Of a DNA stretch of 27,055 bases, positions 4,419-21,190 are shown in pieces. The stretch is from a virus. The notes beneath the pieces were generated by a model. It made no database searches and was not told the origin of the DNA. It saw only the letters and a list, made by a program, of their open reading frames with translations. The position numbers and the translations under genes are program-made. The stretch lies in IMG/VR virus record IMGVR_UViG_3300036766_000503, positions 1 to 27,055 of that record, one strand, 5' to 3'. Each line of letters starts with the position of its first letter. The first letter of the stretch is position 1.

Positions 4419-7400
4419 CGACGGCTGTCGCGACGGTCGGCATTCTCACGAAGATCCAGGGCTTCGGCGAGGTCCAGAAGGTTTTTCAGGATCTATCGCG
4501 CGGCAACCTGAGCCTAACGAACTCGTTCCGTACCAGCGGGCTCGCCTCGACTCAGTTCGGCATTGGTATGACGCGCCTGGCCGGCGATGCGAGCCGTCTT
4601 CTCGGCATCCTCGGGACGTTCTCCCCTATCCTAGGCGCCCTGTCCGTGGTCGGCTTCGTTCATGCCGTGAAGTCGGCCGAGGAGTTCGGCGATCAACTCG
4701 CCATCACGGCGAACAAGCTGGGTGTCACCACGACGGTGCTCCAGGAGTTTCAGCACGTTGCGAAGCTGACCGGTGTGGAGCAGGGCGAGCTTACGACCGG
4801 GCTGCGGTTCCTGACCCGCAACATGGGCGAGGCTGCCCAGGGATCGAAGGCGGCGACCGAGAACTTCCGTCGCTTGGGTGTCAACGTCTTCGATGCGAGC
4901 GGCAAGGTGAAGTCCACCGAGGTGGTCTTCCAGGAACTCGCCGACGGCATCATGAAGATGGGCTCGGAGGCCGAGCGCAATGCGGCCCTGATGGAGATAT
5001 TCGGACGTTCCGGCGTGGCCCTGGCGCCGTTGTTCGAGCAGGGTGGCGAAGCCATCAAGAACATGCGCGAGGAGGCCCACCGGCTCGGGTTGATCCTGGA
5101 TGAAAATCTCATCCGGGGCGCTCAGGCGGCCAACGACACCTTTGATCGTCTGACCGCGACGATCGACATCGCGTACAAACGCATCTTCATCTCGTTGTCC
5201 CCGGCCGTGGCGCAACTCGACGCGACGATCCAGCGGTTGTCACCTCGGCTCCAGGAGTGGGCCGGCACAATGGGGACGACGGTCGGGAAGGCGTTGGTGG
5301 ATTTCTTCGAGGACACCGACAAGGCCCAGAAGAAACTGGAGGAGTTCCTCCGGATCGGCGAAGAGGGGGCGTTTGTCGCTCTCGCGACGCGCTTCGGCGT
5401 CATCGGCACGGCGATCGCATTGGTGGGGGTCGCGCTCAACGAATTGCGGACACTGTGGCTCGATATCCTCAAGGCCATGGGGGCGGAGAACGATAATTTC
5501 CTGGTTCAGCTCCAGAAATTCGGCGTCACGGCCATGGCGATTCTGAAAGACCTATCGCTGGCCTTCGACACCATGTTGCTCAAGGGCATTGCTGCTGGGT
5601 TCGAGGGCATCGGCGACGCCTTCGACAAGCTCTTTGTCGACGATACCAACATCACGAACACCGGCCGCGCGATGGTGGACCTGGAAGATGCGACCACCAA
5701 CTTGGTTGGCTCGTTCGCCGGGCTGGGGCAGGCGGCTGGACCGAGCGCCCGGCTCGCCGCGTGGCAGGCCAGCGCCAAAACGGCGGCCGACGCGGCGACA
5801 GCCTTACAGACCGAGACGAGTGCCGCCGCACGCGAGCTGGTCCGGCTGGAGCGCGGGCTCGGTCCGGTTGCCGCCGCCACGGCGGGCGCGGGCGCGGCGG
5901 TTGAAACCCTGAGCGTGTCGGTGCGCTCCAACACGACGACGTTCACCTCGGCCGAGGCGGTCCAGCATCAGGTCGCCGGGGCGCAACTCAAGATGGCGGC
6001 GGCGACCGCCGCTCAGGAGGAGGCGACCAAGCTCTCGACGAAGGCCGCCGAGGACGCTGTCAAGGTCGGGGAAACCCACAAGAAACTCCTGAAGGACATC
6101 ACCCACGAACTCTTGACCGGCGCCCGCGTGGATGCCGAAACGGCGTCGGAACGGCTCCGTACCACGGAGCGGCTCCGCAACGCCGAGGAACGATACGGAG
6201 TCGCCATCCGGATCGCCGGGGAGGACCGCGTCCACGCGTCCCAGATCGGACAGCGGGCCATCGCCGGCACGATCGCCGCGCAGGAGGCTCTCGGACGATC
6301 CTCCGGCATGGTGTTCGCCAAAATGAATACCGCGATGGTGGATTACTTCCGGGACCTGGGCGACAAGGCCAAGAACTCCGCCAAGGCCGTCACGGCCGTC
6401 ATGGACTCGATGGTGGACACGATCGCCCGGTTCTTGGAGACCGGCAAGCTATCGTTCAAGAGTTTCTTCGACAGCATCAAGCACGAGTTCGCCCAGCTCG
6501 CCGCGAAGAATCTAGTGTTCAGCATGTTCGGCGGCGGACCGGGCGCACCGGGTGGCGGCGGCACGGGGGGCAACATTCTGACATCGTTGTTGTCCGGTCT
6601 CGCCGGCCTGATCGGTGGCGGCGGGGCGGCCAACGCTGGCGGCAACACGAACGCTGGGACGGGCGGAGGGACGGGCGGCGGTGCCCCTACGGGCGGCGGA
6701 GGCGGGTTCCTCGGTGGGTTGGGGGACATCTTCCGGGGTGTCGGCAACATCTTCTCCAGCGGGGTCAGTGCTGGCGGCGGGACCGTTACCGGGAGCGGAC
6801 TGCCCGGCGGAACCTTCGGCGGGCCGGGCGCCGGGGGCGTCCCGTTCTCCGGCGGGTTCAACTCCGGATTCAACCCGATAACCGCGTTTCAGAACATCAG
6901 CAACTTCGGATTCGGCGGCAGCAGCGGCGGTCCCAATGTGGGCGGCTCCGGGGTCAGTAGCGGCAGCCCGTTCGGTGGCGGCGGTCTCATGGGTTTCGGC
7001 GGGCCAGGACTCCTAGATCCGGGGGGTTTCTCCATGGCGAACCTGGGCGCGGACTTTGGCGCCGGCATGACCGGCATGCTGATAGGCAACCTGCTGGGTA
7101 GCATGTTCGGCACGCCAGGAGCGGGCGGCATCGGCAGCACCATCGGCGGCGCGGTGGGGGGTATCGCCGGCTCGTTTTTCGGCCCGGTGGGTAGTTTCGT
7201 CGGGTCCACGTTGGGCTCTCTCGTTGGCGGGCTGTTCGGCGGCGAGGCGCGACCCCCGGCCGTCGAGGCTGGCGCCATCATCGACGCGTTGGGGGGTCGG
7301 GTCGGCGAGGTCGAGACCGGCTCCGGCGGATCGAAGGCGCAGGGCAAGGAACTGGCCCAGGGGTTCCTGGACGTCTTCAACCAGACGGTGGCGGCACTGG

Positions 7401-14401: not shown

Positions 14402-14448
14402 CTTTGACATCGTAGGGGTCACTGGTTCGATCCCAGTCGCGCCCACCA
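14402..14448 (+). other. tRNA-Val(GAC) 3' fragment: phage attachment core (attP or attR)
   Basis: The sequence folds as the 3' part of a tRNA. The anticodon loop is TTGACAT (14404-14410, anticodon GAC), followed by the 3' anticodon stem CGTAG and a five-base variable region. The T stem-loop is ACTGG-TTCGATC-CCAGT (14421-14437), then come the acceptor strand CGCGCCC, discriminator A and encoded CCA (14446-14448). Upstream there is no D arm or 5' acceptor strand, and the anticodon stem no longer pairs properly. So this is a tRNA fragment, as tyrosine-integrase phages carry to rebuild the tRNA gene they enter. It lies between the lysis genes and the integrase, as attP should. Confidence 0.75.
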
Positions 14449-14514: not shown

Positions 14515-14539
14515 CGCGATTATGCACTTGACGACACCT
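14515..14539 (+). repeat. Left terminal inverted repeat of the 3.9-kb transposon
   Basis: This 25-base stretch begins CGCGATTATG and ends CGACACCT. It is the exact reverse complement of 18415-18439, and identity stops at both edges. It also holds TTGACG pointing inward, but no -10 follows at the right distance here. Confidence 0.85.
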
Positions 14540-14576
14540 CCACCCGCTGCGGTGTTAGGCCTGATCTCGCGTAGAC

Positions 14577-14735
14577 CTACCTTTGTGGTTTGGTTGGTCG
14601 TGGCTCGTTTCCCGGTTTGCCCTTCGCCGCTTTGTCCGGGGGAGGTGGCACACCGAGCGCGTTACCCATCACGGCGTCGAACTCGCTTTCGCTCATCCGT
14701 AGTTCATCGCTCGACTCTGATTTGGTCTTGGGCAT
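14577..14735 (-). CDS. Possible internal start giving a free antitoxin-like peptide
   Basis: The ATG at 14735 (residue 92 of the fusion) is preceded on the minus strand by GGAAGGA at about 10-11 bases. It could give a separate 52-residue peptide with the antitoxin-like motif. In related two-gene systems the antitoxin starts about here, overlapping the toxin end. If this start is used, the locus makes both the fusion and an excess of free antitoxin. This is inference from one ribosome-site-like sequence. Confidence 0.35.
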   Translation of the reverse strand: MPKTKSESSDELRMSESEFDAVMGNALGVPPPPDKAAKGKPGNEPRPTKPQR

Positions 14736-15008
14736 CTTGTACACATCCTTCCGGTTGTCGATGTCGAGTATCAGGATTTCTGCGGGGCTGGACCGAACGA
14801 CGTACAGAATCCTATAGTCCCCCGAGCGCTCGCGATAAATAGCTTCTCCCTGGTCCGTTAACACCCCGTGCAGCTTCTTCACGCCCGGCGGGAAAGAAGT
14901 GGTGTGCAGCGCTTTCGCCTTCTTGATGATCTGCCGCCGAATCTTGTGCGGGACCGTCCCAAGGAAATCGAGCGCGGCGGTGGTGAAGGCGAAGCCGACA
15001 AGCCGCAC
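14577..15008 (-). CDS. RelE/ParE-family toxin fused in frame to an antitoxin-like C-terminus
   Basis: 143 residues with a GTG start six bases after the R-M gene stop. Residues 1-91 are a complete RelE/ParE toxin pattern: an N-terminal helix region, a helical pair with RRQIIKKAKAL, GVKKLHG, then YRERSGDYRILYVV and LILDIDNRKDVYK, where native toxins usually stop. Residues 92-143 continue without a stop: MPKTKSESSDELRMSESEFD, then AVMGNALGVPPPP and a basic Lys/Pro tail. The 'SExEFDxxMxxAL-x-VxPPP' part resembles small antitoxins encoded directly after RelE-like toxins. So toxin and antitoxin appear as one polypeptide. The toxin call is firm; the antitoxin reading is a pattern-based inference. 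Confidence 0.72.
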   Translation of the reverse strand: MRLVGFAFTTAALDFLGTVPHKIRRQIIKKAKALHTTSFPPGVKKLHGVLTDQGEAIYRERSGDYRILYVVRSSPAEILILDIDNRKDVYKMPKTKSESSDELRMSESEFDAVMGNALGVPPPPDKAAKGKPGNEPRPTKPQR

Positions 15009-15014
15009 CGGATG

Positions 15015-17438
15015 CTACTCTGCATCCAACGCCGACAGCCTCGCGTCGAGATCGTCACCACGGACAAGCTGAATGTAGCCGGTCTTGACCTCTTGGAGCC
15101 GATCATGCGCGATGCGGCTGTCCAGCGCATCCTCTGCGTTCTCGAGAATTGTTGCCTCAACCTGTGCGGCCCGCGCTAGATAGTCGTTCACCTTCGCGAC
15201 CATAGCCTCGCTTACCGGGACCGGAAAATCGGCGATGCGGTCGGGGGTAGCCTTCCGTCCATAGCTGAACCGCCAAGCCTCGTTCCTGACAACGGCGGCG
15301 GCGATGTAGAGCACGGCGTGCGGCACGTCAGGCTTCGGCAATAGCACTAGGCAATCGTCCGTCACGCCGCACGCCAATTCCTGAACGTGCGCGATTGCGA
15401 TTGAGCCGGTGCTAGGAACCGTCACGAATGGAGGCGCAAGAGTCTGCTCGAAATCAAAGAAGCCGTAGCAGCCGTTTTCCATGCCGCTGGACGAAATGAC
15501 GAGGGTATGGCCGGGCAACAGCGCCTCTTTGTTGTGTAGCGTCTTTTGGCCGTAATAGATGTCGAAATAGGCCCCGACGGTGCCCGGCCTTGGCGGGCGG
15601 ACAGCGGGCGTTCTCCGCATAGCACGAAGCGATGTAGGGTTGTCCTGATTGAGCCGTACCACATCCGGTGCGTGATAGGCCATGAAGGCCGTCCGGCTAC
15701 GGACGATCCCAAGAACGCCCTCGTTGACCTCTTCATCGGCCAACGTCCGCGCGGGAATATAGGCACCCGGCGCGAAGCTGAAATCGTCATCCAGTGGCGA
15801 CCAGCCGCAGAAGCCAGCCTCAGTTTGCTTCGATTGATAGGCCGCCAGCGCCTTCGGCAACTCACTCCCTCCGCAAGAGATGCGGACGCCCTTCTTGAGC
15901 CGGTAGCCGTCGTTTTCGATGCGCGCGAAGAAGACGAATTTGCCCTTGGGGTGCGACACACCTTTGGTGAGATAGAGGACGACCGTGTAGGGCTGCGCGT
16001 AGGGCTGAAATAGCTCGTCGGGCAGCTTGATCGCGGCCTCAATGGTGTTCTTCGCGAGGATGGACTTCCGCCATGCCTTCTTGGTCCGCTTCACGAGAAG
16101 AGACAGGGGGATCACGACCGCTAAGCGCCCGCCCTGCGACAAGCCTTCCAGCGCTCGCTCAACGAATCGCTCGGAAGGCGCGTCGGTTTTCTTGTGAGGG
16201 TAAGGCGGGTTCATCAGGACGGCGCTCGCGCCGCCGACCGGATATTCCGGGGAGGTGAAGGCGTCGCCCCGGTGAACGCTGGACGAGCCATCGCCGCGCA
16301 GGATCATGTTGGCGACACAGAGGGCGGCCGTGATCGGCTCGTCATCGAAGCCGATCAGCTTTTTCTGGACGAGATGCACCATCTGCGCCCGCGACAGCTT
16401 ATGCTCGCGCGCGATCCGATTCATGGCGGCGATCAGGAATCCGCCCGTTCCACAGGCGGGGTCAAGCACGATGTCGGCTTGGGAAATGCCGATAAGATCG
16501 GCGCAGAAAGCGGCAATATGGCGGGGCGTGAAATACTGCCCGATGGTGTTGCCGCCCGCGTATTGGAAAAACGTCTCGTATAGCTGGCCGAGATAGTCAT
16601 GCTCCGCAGTGAGAACCGAAACGTTCAGCCGCTCTAGAATCGTGATGATGCGCCGGGCTTTGATCGCCAGCTTCTCGTTCGCCTCATCGACGTGAAGGCT
16701 CTTTGCGAGGTCCGGCTTCTGCGCCTTCCAGAACGCCTGTTCGCATGCGCGGTTGATGTCGGCCAGGATGTTGGCTGGATCTTTCCGAAGCTGGCCGCGC
16801 GACTGCCAAAGGGCCAGCATACAAGCGCCGACGACCGCTGGGCGGGAGCGGTCGTTGATGTTCGACTCGCGCAAGAGCCGGTTAATCTCGTCCGCACGAG
16901 CGGCGAGCACATCCGGGCCGGGGACGGAGGGTCGTAATTCGGACGCGGTATTCGGTAGTCGGATGCGGTCGGCGTCCGCACGGTTCGGAATCCACTCGAT
17001 AGGGTGGCCTTCGTAGGTGACAGGAATCCAAGCCGAGCCGTTCCACTTGGAGACGCGAACCTTGAACTCGTCTTCGCTGGTCCCCGCCACCGCGATAGCG
17101 AGCGGATTGAACCCGGCGTCGATGGCCGCTTGGCCGTAATCGAGCGTCACTTCGCGAACGGCTTTGTCGAGGCCGCTCATGCTCGCCTTCGCTTCGATGA
17201 TGATCAGCGGCTGTAGCGTTGCGCGATCGACGAGCACGGCTTCGGGCAGTCCATCGCCGCCCCCCGCGCCCTTGCTGCGCGCGCGGAATATCTCGCGAAG
17301 GTGAGCGTGATCCTTGTACTCGTGCTGGCGCAGCATTTCGCCGTTGGGCGGTCGCCGGCAATCCCATCCCTGTGCCGCCAGCAATTCGGTAAGCAGGTGC
17401 TCCGTCCGTACCTCTGAAACTCGGAGCGCGCGGGCCAC
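15015..17438 (-). CDS. Single-polypeptide restriction-modification enzyme (nuclease + N6-adenine methyltransferase + specificity region)
   Basis: 807 residues. Residues 1-140 look like a HsdR-N-type PD-(D/E)xK nuclease: D71 in AVLVD, then a hydrophobic strand and E82-A83-K84 (IIIEAKAS). A helical region at 190-300 resembles HsdM N-terminal bundles. The methyltransferase core has motif I DPACGTGGF (326-334) and motif IV NPPY (410-413), typical of N6-adenine (gamma-class) enzymes. The C-terminal 230 residues resemble a target recognition domain, ending with a G-R-K-A-T-P-D-R-I-A-D-F-P-V-P segment as in HsdS repeats. This is a Type IIG-like layout. The GTG start overlaps the transposase stop (TAGTG), so the two are probably translationally coupled. 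A methylase with an inactive nuclease domain is the alternative. Confidence 0.75.
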   Translation of the reverse strand: MARALRVSEVRTEHLLTELLAAQGWDCRRPPNGEMLRQHEYKDHAHLREIFRARSKGAGGGDGLPEAVLVDRATLQPLIIIEAKASMSGLDKAVREVTLDYGQAAIDAGFNPLAIAVAGTSEDEFKVRVSKWNGSAWIPVTYEGHPIEWIPNRADADRIRLPNTASELRPSVPGPDVLAARADEINRLLRESNINDRSRPAVVGACMLALWQSRGQLRKDPANILADINRACEQAFWKAQKPDLAKSLHVDEANEKLAIKARRIITILERLNVSVLTAEHDYLGQLYETFFQYAGGNTIGQYFTPRHIAAFCADLIGISQADIVLDPACGTGGFLIAAMNRIAREHKLSRAQMVHLVQKKLIGFDDEPITAALCVANMILRGDGSSSVHRGDAFTSPEYPVGGASAVLMNPPYPHKKTDAPSERFVERALEGLSQGGRLAVVIPLSLLVKRTKKAWRKSILAKNTIEAAIKLPDELFQPYAQPYTVVLYLTKGVSHPKGKFVFFARIENDGYRLKKGVRISCGGSELPKALAAYQSKQTEAGFCGWSPLDDDFSFAPGAYIPARTLADEEVNEGVLGIVRSRTAFMAYHAPDVVRLNQDNPTSLRAMRRTPAVRPPRPGTVGAYFDIYYGQKTLHNKEALLPGHTLVISSSGMENGCYGFFDFEQTLAPPFVTVPSTGSIAIAHVQELACGVTDDCLVLLPKPDVPHAVLYIAAAVVRNEAWRFSYGRKATPDRIADFPVPVSEAMVAKVNDYLARAAQVEATILENAEDALDSRIAHDRLQEVKTGYIQLVRGDDLDARLSALDAE

Positions 17439-18391
17439 TATTTTGCGGCCTTGGGCCGGTGCATCATTAGGCGCTTGCCTTCAATTCCGCGGATGCCTTG
17501 CGAGGTCCGCTCACCGTCGCTCCCCTTGCGGGTGTTATATTTGAAATCCAGCTCGGCGGCATAGAGGTGAAGGTGCTGGCGGCTCACTTGGTGGTGCGTC
17601 CCGTCCAAGCTCCGCTTGGCGTTTCCGAAGAAGCCTTCGACGGTGTTGGTGCTGACCGTGCGGCCCGTGCGGTAGTCGTACCAGGCATACTCGTCCGCAG
17701 CGTGATTGACCTTAGCGTGAGACGCGAAGCGCTTGCCCGCCTTCCGATACAGCGGAGACTCGTCAGTGTTCAGGTGTGCGTCTTCGGCGACGTGGCGGCG
17801 CAGGAGTAGGTCAATGGTTGCACCGCTGACGCGCTCGGCGACAGTGGACCGAACATCGCCATTTCGCTGCACGAGCGAAACGACGACAGCCTTGTTCTTG
17901 ACGTAGCCGCGCCCCTTGCCGCGCGCCTTACCGCCGATGTAGGTCTCATCGGCCTCAACCTCGCCGACGAGCTTCCCCGATGGGCTAGTGTCCTTCAGCG
18001 CGTAGCGGATACGGTGACAAAGGAAAAGGGCGCTGCGGTAGGAGCCGATTTCAAGCTGCCGCTGAAGCTGTAGCGCCGAGACCTGCGTCTTGCTGGCGCA
18101 CATCATGTAGAAGGCGATCAGCCACTTGTTCAGCGGAATCTTGGAGTCCTCCATGACGGTCCCAACCGTCACGGTGAAGGTGTCTTGGCATTCCCCACAC
18201 TTGTAGAGACCGGCCCTAATGCGGGCCTTGGCATTGGAGGTGCGGGCGTAGATGCGGCCCGAGTCAGCGTTGCCACAGTGCGGGCACGTCGGCCCGCTCG
18301 GCCACCGGATGCGCTCAAAAAAAGCGCGCGCCTCCTCCTCGGTCGAGAAGCGCCGCATAATCTCAAGAAGGGTCAGGTCATTGTTTGCCAT
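17438..18391 (-). CDS. IS1595-family transposase (element 1)
   Basis: 317 residues, apparently complete. An N-terminal zinc ribbon is visible (CPHCGN near residue 36 and Y-K-C-G-E-C near 66), then a helical linker with the NKWLIAFYMM stretch. The DDE core follows: first D in EVEADETYIGGK, second D in LNTDESPLYRK, and E in NTVEGFFGNAKR. That set is typical of IS1595-family enzymes. The ATG lies right after its promoter, so the mRNA may be leaderless. Its stop TAG shares a base with the GTG of the R-M gene, an arrangement that would make R-M expression depend on transposase translation. Confidence 0.88.
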   Translation of the reverse strand: MANNDLTLLEIMRRFSTEEEARAFFERIRWPSGPTCPHCGNADSGRIYARTSNAKARIRAGLYKCGECQDTFTVTVGTVMEDSKIPLNKWLIAFYMMCASKTQVSALQLQRQLEIGSYRSALFLCHRIRYALKDTSPSGKLVGEVEADETYIGGKARGKGRGYVKNKAVVVSLVQRNGDVRSTVAERVSGATIDLLLRRHVAEDAHLNTDESPLYRKAGKRFASHAKVNHAADEYAWYDYRTGRTVSTNTVEGFFGNAKRSLDGTHHQVSRQHLHLYAAELDFKYNTRKGSDGERTSQGIRGIEGKRLMMHRPKAAK

Positions 18392-18397
18392 GCCCCG

Positions 18398-18426
18398 AGA
18401 TTAGCAGAATCGACAGGTGTCGTCAA
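18398..18426 (-). promoter_or_regulatory. Transposase promoter with -35 inside the terminal repeat
   Basis: On the minus strand, TTGACG (18421-18426, inside the repeat) and TAATCT (18398-18403) are 17 bases apart. Transcription would start about seven bases after the -10, at or next to the ATG at 18391. The only likely promoter of the element is therefore tied to its end and would give a nearly leaderless message. Confidence 0.65.
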
Positions 18427-18544
18427 GTGCATAATCGCGGTTGGAATTGAACGGCGGATCGAGATAGATCAGGTCAACGCTTTCGTCCGCGATGTTGTCA
18501 CGCAGCACGGCGAGGTTGTCGCCGTAATAGAGCGCGTTGGCCAT
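18401..18544 (-). pseudogene. 5' fragment of a DNA methyltransferase, cut by transposon 1
   Basis: From the ATG at 18544 (GAGGA site five bases before) the first 38 residues read MANALYYGDNLAVL, then a D-E-S-V-D-L-I-Y-L segment, the catalytic DPPF motif (D-P-P-F-N-S-N) and RDY. This is the N-terminus of a Mod-like site-specific methyltransferase of several hundred residues. After RDY, translation runs into the terminal repeat of element 1 and stops at 18401, so only a stub remains. It lies directly downstream of the second transposase on the same strand, consistent with once having been that element's passenger. The rest of the gene is not seen on the other side of element 1. Confidence 0.78.
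18415..18439 (-). repeat. Right terminal inverted repeat of the 3.9-kb transposon
   Basis: Exact reverse complement of 14515-14539 over 25 bases. Its outer nine bases coincide with codons for Arg-Asp-Tyr of the interrupted methyltransferase gene. Either the target happened to match or the real repeat is a little shorter. Confidence 0.85.
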
Positions 18545-18588
18545 GCGATCCTCACCCCAAAGGTCGCCCATCTTTACCCCAGACGACC

Positions 18589-19551
18589 CTAAGCCGCGAC
18601 CCTTTGCCAATACCCCTTCCACTCCCGCGACACCGCATGAGCCAGCGCCGCGCCGGCAACCAACAGGTACTGCGATCCGTTGCTGACCCGACGGTGATCC
18701 TCGCGCCACGCCATTTCCCGCGCGTAGCTGGCGAGGTACTTTCCGCTGATATGATGGTGCGTCCCGACCTCGGCGCGACGGAGCCGCGAGAAGTAGCTTT
18801 CAGCCTGATTGGTGCAGGCGCCATCGTCCGCGAACGCGACCGAGTGATTGATCCGACGCATCAGGAACCGCGCGTGCAGGCTATCCCAGGATGATGCCTC
18901 GTCAGCGTTGATCGTGCTGCCCGGCAGGACGCGATCCAGGATCGTCGGGACCGCTTCGTCCTCGCCATCGAACACGAACGGTAGGGCACGACCACGGCGC
19001 TCGCGCATCACGACGACGACCTTGCGCTTGCCGGATTGGTTGATCGCCAGCCGCCGGTCCTTGCGATCCTCTTTCCGGTTCTCGGGCTTCACGTAGCCGC
19101 CGAAGTACGCGCCATCAACCTCAACCAAGCCCGAGAGCTTCCGGGTGCTCATCTCGGCGCCCATGGCTTCCCGGAGCTTGTGGGCCAGCACGAAGGCCGT
19201 CTTGTATTGACAGCCCAGGTCCCGGCTCAGTTGCAGCGCGCTGTAGCCCTTGGCGCCGTTCACGAAGATCGCGATAGCGGCCAACAGGTCACGGATCGCC
19301 ATCTTGCGGCTGGCGAAGATCGTGCCCGACGTGATGCTGAACTGCCCGTCGCAGCCCTTGCACTTGAAGATGCGCCGGGCCTTGAAGGTGTAGACGGCGT
19401 AGCAGCCGCAAGCCGGGCAGACGGGCTCGCCATCGTTGCCGGCCCAGCGGATCGCCCGGAACGTCTCGTACGCCTCGTCATCCGACAGGCGCATGACCTT
19501 GGCCAGGCTGAGGGTCCGGGCCTTGGCTGAGAGAAGGAAGTGTTGGGACAT
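18589..19551 (-). CDS. IS1595-family transposase (element 2)
   Basis: 320 residues, apparently complete and clearly different from the first transposase. Zinc ribbon cysteines appear as CPACG and FKCKGCDGQFS. The DDE residues are in LVEVDGAYFGGY (D), INADEASSWDS (D) and TNQAESYFSRLR (E), followed by a THHHIS segment typical of this subgroup. The N-terminus MSQHFLLSAKARTLSLAKV is also characteristic, which supports the ATG at 19551 even though no ribosome site is visible. Its start codon lies at the edge of a 40-bp palindrome. The enzyme looks intact, but its element lacks a recognisable second end. Confidence 0.87.
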   Translation of the reverse strand: MSQHFLLSAKARTLSLAKVMRLSDDEAYETFRAIRWAGNDGEPVCPACGCYAVYTFKARRIFKCKGCDGQFSITSGTIFASRKMAIRDLLAAIAIFVNGAKGYSALQLSRDLGCQYKTAFVLAHKLREAMGAEMSTRKLSGLVEVDGAYFGGYVKPENRKEDRKDRRLAINQSGKRKVVVVMRERRGRALPFVFDGEDEAVPTILDRVLPGSTINADEASSWDSLHARFLMRRINHSVAFADDGACTNQAESYFSRLRRAEVGTHHHISGKYLASYAREMAWREDHRRVSNGSQYLLVAGAALAHAVSREWKGYWQRVAA

Positions 19552-20788: not shown

Positions 20789-21190
20789 CTAATGCCGCAT
20801 CTTCGCCCCCCGTAGCCCGGCCATCATGACACCCCTGAGGTGGTCGGTCGCGAGCTTCGCGTACCGCGCCGTCGTCTGCGGCCGGCTGTGGCCCAGCATC
20901 TTCCCCACCTTGTATAGATCGTTGCCGTCTTGGGCTGCCCATGAGCCGAGGGTATGGCGCAGCGTCACCGGCGTCACGTCCGACGTCAGCCCCGCTGCTG
21001 CCCGTGCGGTGGCCCACGAACGCCGAAGGGTGATCTTGGCCATCGGCACCACCCGCTTGTCGCGGGCGCGCTTGGCGGCCCACCGGAGGTGTCGCAACAG
21101 GGCGCCGCCGATCGGCACCACGGCGCGGCGCTTGTTGGACTCGCCCCGGCCCGGCAATCGAAGATCGATGACGCACGCCGCGCCGGCCAT
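20789..21190 (-). pseudogene. C-terminal part of a tyrosine integrase (truncated)
   Basis: 133 residues from the first ATG; the frame is open a little further upstream, over the excisionase-like gene. The end of the catalytic domain is present: VIDLRLPGRGESNKRRAVVP with the catalytic-hairpin Lys, TLRHT with the second Arg, MLGHS, and TTARY with the nucleophile Tyr. The N-terminal arm and core-binding domains and the first catalytic Arg (Box I) are absent. The His normally three residues before the second Arg (H-x-x-R) is Val here. Full-length relatives have 350-400 residues. This looks like the residue of a deletion that fused xis to the 3' end of int. Activity is unlikely. Confidence 0.72.

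Follow-up and report, generated by a model that had tools for sequence, protein, structure and literature searches.

A single open reading frame near the middle of the window (here the whole 27,055-nt stretch analysed, an IMG/VR virus record, IMGVR_UViG_3300036766_000503) encodes a whole RelE toxin domain, residues 1–91, followed in frame by a tail that is a real, conserved accessory without recognizable antitoxin character. The gene is the last one of an IS1595-family transposon (Table 1), and the C-terminus of the restriction-methylation protein encoded just before it is better supported by sequence comparison as an antitoxin candidate than the fused tail. We lean slightly toward a reading in which the element is a mobile module pairing restriction with RelE: the C-terminus of the restriction protein would silence the toxin, and the tail would act as a conserved accessory.

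Table 1. Features of the transposon and its genes, in positions of the window.
Feature	Position	Strand	Basis or detail
Whole IS1595-family transposon (3,925 bp)	14515–18439	−	Inverted repeats, transposase Pfam matches, layout in relatives
Terminal inverted repeat, toxin end	14515–14539		CGCGATTATGCACTTGACGACACCT
RelE toxin ORF with tail	14577–15008	−	Intact single frame, 143 aa, GTG start
Tail of 52 residues and stop; a small accessory protein, here fused	14577–14735	−	Separate overlapping gene in eight relatives
RelE toxin domain, residues 1–91	14736–15008	−	PHROG, AlphaFold2, Foldseek, solved RelE chains
Possible Shine-Dalgarno GGAAGGA for internal start	14746–14752	−	10 nt before ATG
Type-IIG-like restriction-methylation protein (probable), 807 aa	15015–17438	−	N6_Mtase profile, PADLOC, motifs
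C-terminal RelB-like segment, proposed RelE neutralizer	15018–15146	−	Alignments, hhalign to antitoxin C-termini; NF048017 and TIGR02574 for homologues
IS1595 transposase, 317 aa	17438–18391	−	DDE_Tnp_IS1595 E = 4e-33, Zn_ribbon_IS1595 E = 7e-13 (Pfam)
Terminal inverted repeat, transposase end	18415–18439		AGGTGTCGTCAAGTGCATAATCGCG

The transposon and its restriction-methylation protein

The 25-bp inverted repeats are perfect and enclose the transposase, restriction-methylation and toxin genes; the transposase has both the zinc ribbon and the DDE domain of its family. The same layout was found between similar repeats at loci L004, L005, L008, L017/L127, and L121/L128, with 8-bp target duplications at L004, L008, L127, and L128. 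No 8-bp duplication was found around the window copy. Abutting the inverted repeat there is a second region (18401–19551, minus strand) with another IS1595 transposase (18589–19551) and a truncated further DNA methylase, of which the start is present (MANALYYGDNLAVLRDN...); this suggests nested or rearranged elements and would be consistent with the absent duplication. Next to the transposon, at 14424–14448, a tRNA gene is represented by its 3′ end alone (GGTTCGATCCCAGTCGCGCCCACCA), and ARAGORN reports no tRNA there; this sequence is likely a prophage attachment site. An ORF at 20789–21190 (minus strand), its translation judged by eye, looks like a tyrosine integrase C-terminus and is possibly truncated.

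The 807-aa protein matches the N6_Mtase profile (E = 3e-34) and, in PADLOC, MTase_I (4e-46) and REase_MTase_IIG (5e-44). It has an NPPY motif and an N-terminal PD-(D/E)XK-like motif (D71, E82xK84), and this D...ExK nuclease-like motif is kept in eight homologues. Judged from this motif, the protein is probably a type-IIG-like enzyme, with the nuclease assigned by motif, the methylase by profile, and a specificity region presumed. The bodies of the proteins encoded upstream of RelE differ among loci, some being of the window type, others of the L017 type with HSDR_N, and that in L057 HsdS-like. The gap between methylase and toxin genes is 6 nt in the window and 3–9 nt among the copies measured. 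At L109 and L110, another small ORF (...NRDAFAAMLRQAVPDE...) is found downstream of methylases without RelE.

The RelE toxin and its tail

When collections of genomes, viruses, plasmids, and phages were searched with a single sequence, no close relative was found; a search with a three-sequence alignment did find relatives. Several lines of evidence agree with the preliminary description of this frame, in which the toxin was complete by residue 91, where homologues usually stop. PHROG 1213 (“RelE-like toxin”) matches residues 7–91 in a profile search (E = 4e-11), residues 1–91 have RelE topology in the AlphaFold2 model (pLDDT ~90), placing them in the RelE/BECR fold, and the top Foldseek matches of the model are RelE chains from RelBE complexes (1wmi, 2khe, 3g5o, 9g12; E to 1e-6). 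There is also a sequence match to M. tuberculosis RelE-type toxins, whose solved chains stop at the equivalent of residue 91; Pfam ParE_toxin scores 20.6 bits, slightly under its cut-off of 23 bits. Residues R59, R61, R66, R86, K87, and Y90 are kept in nearly all toxin rows of the alignment, and we take these conserved basic residues and terminal Tyr to be the RelE active-site positions. The pN/pS of the toxin, 0.22, indicates purifying selection.

The 52-residue in-frame extension noted in the same description is likewise borne out. The frame is intact, and the same fusion occurs in four further intact copies, two on viral contigs (L004, L005), one in Erythrobacter cryptus (L006), and one in Alphaproteobacterium BAL199 (L007), and again in Acetobacter sacchari (L009), where the toxin is truncated. 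A sequencing error hiding a stop near residue 91 was ruled out by these recurrences. Two-gene homologues with a stop after residue 91, proposed there as a check, were found at eight loci (L008, L016–L018, L057, L115, L121, L122): the toxin ends right after this position, and a second gene, with its start codon overlapping the toxin stop (ATGA or GTGA), encodes the tail. One base separates the split junction, TATCGATGA, from the fused one, TATCGCATG. The fused toxins cluster together in the toxin tree, though weakly (58/77), and the canonical outgroup toxins stop at the residue-91 position without a tail, which suggests that the split arrangement is ancestral to the fusion. Toxins that look intact but have no tail are found at L011, L014, and L015. 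In the first of these (Variovorax, around 5001–5408) the place of the tail is taken by an unrelated C-terminal extension of ~57 residues on a RelE belonging to the same group.

The core of the tail (residues 92–123) is under purifying selection similar to that on the toxin (pN/pS 0.26), with residues 124–143 less conserved (0.66). No tail-like ORF was found near 20 other IS1595 transposases, so the tail does not characterize IS1595 elements in general. Two RelE-less methylases with the same body as that of the window (L118, 890–3460; L119, 3435–6008) end in DALRAFMQVDPAK and REEFFAALEKVTRP, faintly like the tail core; the likeness is suggestive by eye and not significant by profile comparison (score 11.3, P = 0.11).

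The tail may also be made alone. An internal ATG at 14735–14733 has GGAAGGA 10 nt upstream, and AAGGA precedes the tail start in all 14 of the tail-bearing copies. The start proposed earlier for a free antitoxin is plausible; that its product would be an antitoxin is not borne out, as it has no antitoxin similarity. Searches of Pfam, NCBIfam, PADLOC, and the PDB gave no antitoxin match for the tail, its single PHROG match is a weak one (E = 0.0045) to a PHROG of unknown function, and against a profile of antitoxin C-termini it scores 6.7, at noise level. Of the suggested likeness to separate small antitoxins, the separate small ORF is borne out in the eight relatives and the sequence similarity is not. 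Placement of the tail over the toxin active site finds no support from AlphaFold2, which, in a test limited by a shallow alignment, docks the tail without confidence because its single helix (107–118, pLDDT 66–69) follows a flexible linker (below 50).

We consider it unlikely that the tail is itself the antitoxin, covering RelE until cleavage, or until the internal start supplies additional tail. It does have a conserved core under purifying selection, it forms a separate overlapping gene directly after the toxin in eight relatives, AAGGA precedes its start throughout, and BECR-fold toxin-antitoxin fusions exist (PMC11980606); set against these are the lack of antitoxin similarity, the tailless copies, the unconfident docking, and the better-supported candidate just upstream. 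A fusion self-neutralized until cleaved, as the preliminary description had it, is for these reasons not the best reading. The findings also warn that a C-terminal extension of a RelE should not be called an antitoxin by default.

A RelB-like segment at the methylase C-terminus

In RelBE-type operons the antitoxin gene comes first and the toxin gene after it; in the window the methylase gene takes that first place. RelE-linked proteins with differing bodies have a common terminal segment, “ED..D..iA..RL.Ei....lv.G..L..RL”, and in hhalign comparisons the ~40-residue end of the methylase lines up, in register, with RelB/Phd-type antitoxin C-termini. This short segment was initially spotted by eye, and the antitoxins of the first profile test were picked with the motif in view; the test was redone without such choice, using the last 42 residues of 17 ORFs selected, whatever their motifs, for lying immediately before RelE relatives. 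Against these, a profile of 13 methylase C-termini scored 22.4 (P = 1.1e-4), with 38 columns in register. In the controls, 200 column shuffles gave a mean of 7.7 and a maximum of 15.5, the reversed profile gave 7.5, and 15 Phd/YefM antitoxins that have no RelE relative after them gave 7.8. A repeat with 15 methylase ends scored 21.2, where the highest of 300 shuffles reached 12.6 (shuffle means over both tests 7.4–7.7), RelE-less methylase C-termini scored 5.3, and the toxin’s own tail scored the 6.7 already given.

Searches of single families gave fainter signals. The NCBIfam RelB-like family NF048017 matches three of the 15 segments over its C-terminal half (profile positions 34–67 of 70), at best with E = 0.0076 and 16.5 bits against a curated cut-off of 50, and TIGR02574 (addiction module component) matches one of the 15, far under its curated cut-off. 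Among the NCBIfam matches listed for the 15 there was no other family, the window’s own segment alone matched none, and a profile search of the PDB with the segment found no RelB. A single-profile HMM of canonical antitoxins reaches the methylase C-termini only at E 0.8–4, so the case for the segment rests on the comparison of profile with profile.

In the AlphaFold2 model the methylase ends in a long helix, followed after a break by a short final helix of lower confidence. The N-terminal DNA-binding domain of RelB-type proteins (RHH or Phd/YefM) is absent, the body being an N6 methylase. The pN/pS of the segment, 0.43, indicates moderate purifying selection. Among the loci sampled, the segment is present at 19 of 19 with RelE or a remnant of it and at none of the seven methylase relatives without RelE (L108–L111, L118, L119, L123). 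Fisher tests of this co-occurrence give 1.5e-6 overall and 0.0012 within the same-body family, values that overstate the evidence because the loci are related, not independent.

The toxin gene is degraded at L010, L114, and L117, where the methylase C-terminal segment is still recognizable. These broken toxins, and library matches that are weak one by one, would fit a RelE that is ordinary cargo, either inactive or neutralized by host antitoxins; the segment would then be just a generic helical motif, and the extension formed by the tail would be inert. The shuffle, reversed, and RelE-less controls, the joint occurrence of segment and toxin, and the selection on toxin and tail core all argue otherwise, and we regard this explanation as very improbable. 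Neutralization in two parts, with methylase C-terminus and tail both needed or cooperating as in three-component toxin-antitoxin systems, is also rather improbable; segment and tail are both conserved, on either side of the toxin in most relatives, but some relatives have no tail and no direct sign of cooperation was seen.

Known systems and a possible mechanism

The nearest parallel is RelBE itself (M. tuberculosis RelBE2, 3g5o, and RelBE1, 9g12; P. horikoshii, 1wmi; E. coli, 4fxe), with which the present pair has in common the fold and length of RelE, a partner encoded directly upstream, and last ~40 residues of that partner that align with RelB-type C-termini. It differs in that the partner here is an 807-aa restriction-methylation protein without the RelB DNA-binding domain, and in the tail on the toxin. 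Single-chain toxin-antitoxins have already been described (PMC4826407), and 195 gene fusions of BECR-fold toxins with antitoxins are listed in Table 2 of PMC11980606; in these, as in the present ORF, one frame encodes a small RelE-like toxin and an additional C-terminal domain, but theirs are antitoxin domains (HTH, RHH, MqsA, Phd/YefM) and none is recognizable in the tail here. RelE toxins with a C-terminal domain that is not an antitoxin, and with relB upstream, are also known, in the form of the RelE/HicA “Shared Domain” (PMC10865869), likewise an addition to RelE with the antitoxin encoded upstream; it has three helices where the tail has one.

Toxin-antitoxin genes have been found inside a type I locus, the pneumococcal tvr locus with tvrAT (PMC6265443), which similarly sets toxin-antitoxin-like genes within a restriction-modification locus; tvrAT is of the phd-doc type, however, and has its own antitoxin gene. 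In the PrrC-EcoprrI restriction “guardian” (PMC12707154) an RNA-cutting toxin is silenced by a restriction-modification complex. The likeness is in proposed logic only: toxin and contacts are unrelated, and here the genes are borne by a transposon and guarding would be a presumed role. In the non-subscription literature searched, no paper was found that describes a methylase bearing a RelB-like segment, an IS1595 element that carries one, or this transposon.

The enzyme itself may silence the toxin, since the end of the restriction enzyme, unlike the toxin tail, looks antitoxin-like. In the mechanism proposed here, an IS1595-family transposon bears a compact restriction-methylation gene with the RelE gene close behind it, and the restriction-methylation protein would probably bind RelE through its final ~40 residues and hold it inactive. 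Were that protein lost, inactivated, or blocked, RelE would be freed to cut mRNA, and translation would stop; the outcome could be addiction to the transposon, a guard against anti-restriction, or both. The tail probably began as a small gene of its own, coupled in translation to the toxin gene and then fused to it by a one-base change, and might contribute accessory binding, stability, or partial antitoxin function. Whether the restriction-methylation enzyme doubles as the RelE antitoxin in this way, so that its loss, degradation, or inhibition by phage would lead to growth arrest, with the segment carried on several different bodies, we judge to be evenly balanced.

If the proposal is right, a compact mobile module would couple a restriction system to RelE through a physically attached antitoxin segment, serving as an addiction device for the transposon and possibly as an alarm against anti-restriction proteins, and the PrrC idea would be extended to the RelE family. 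The C-terminal signature of the methylase could then be used to find further such enzymes.
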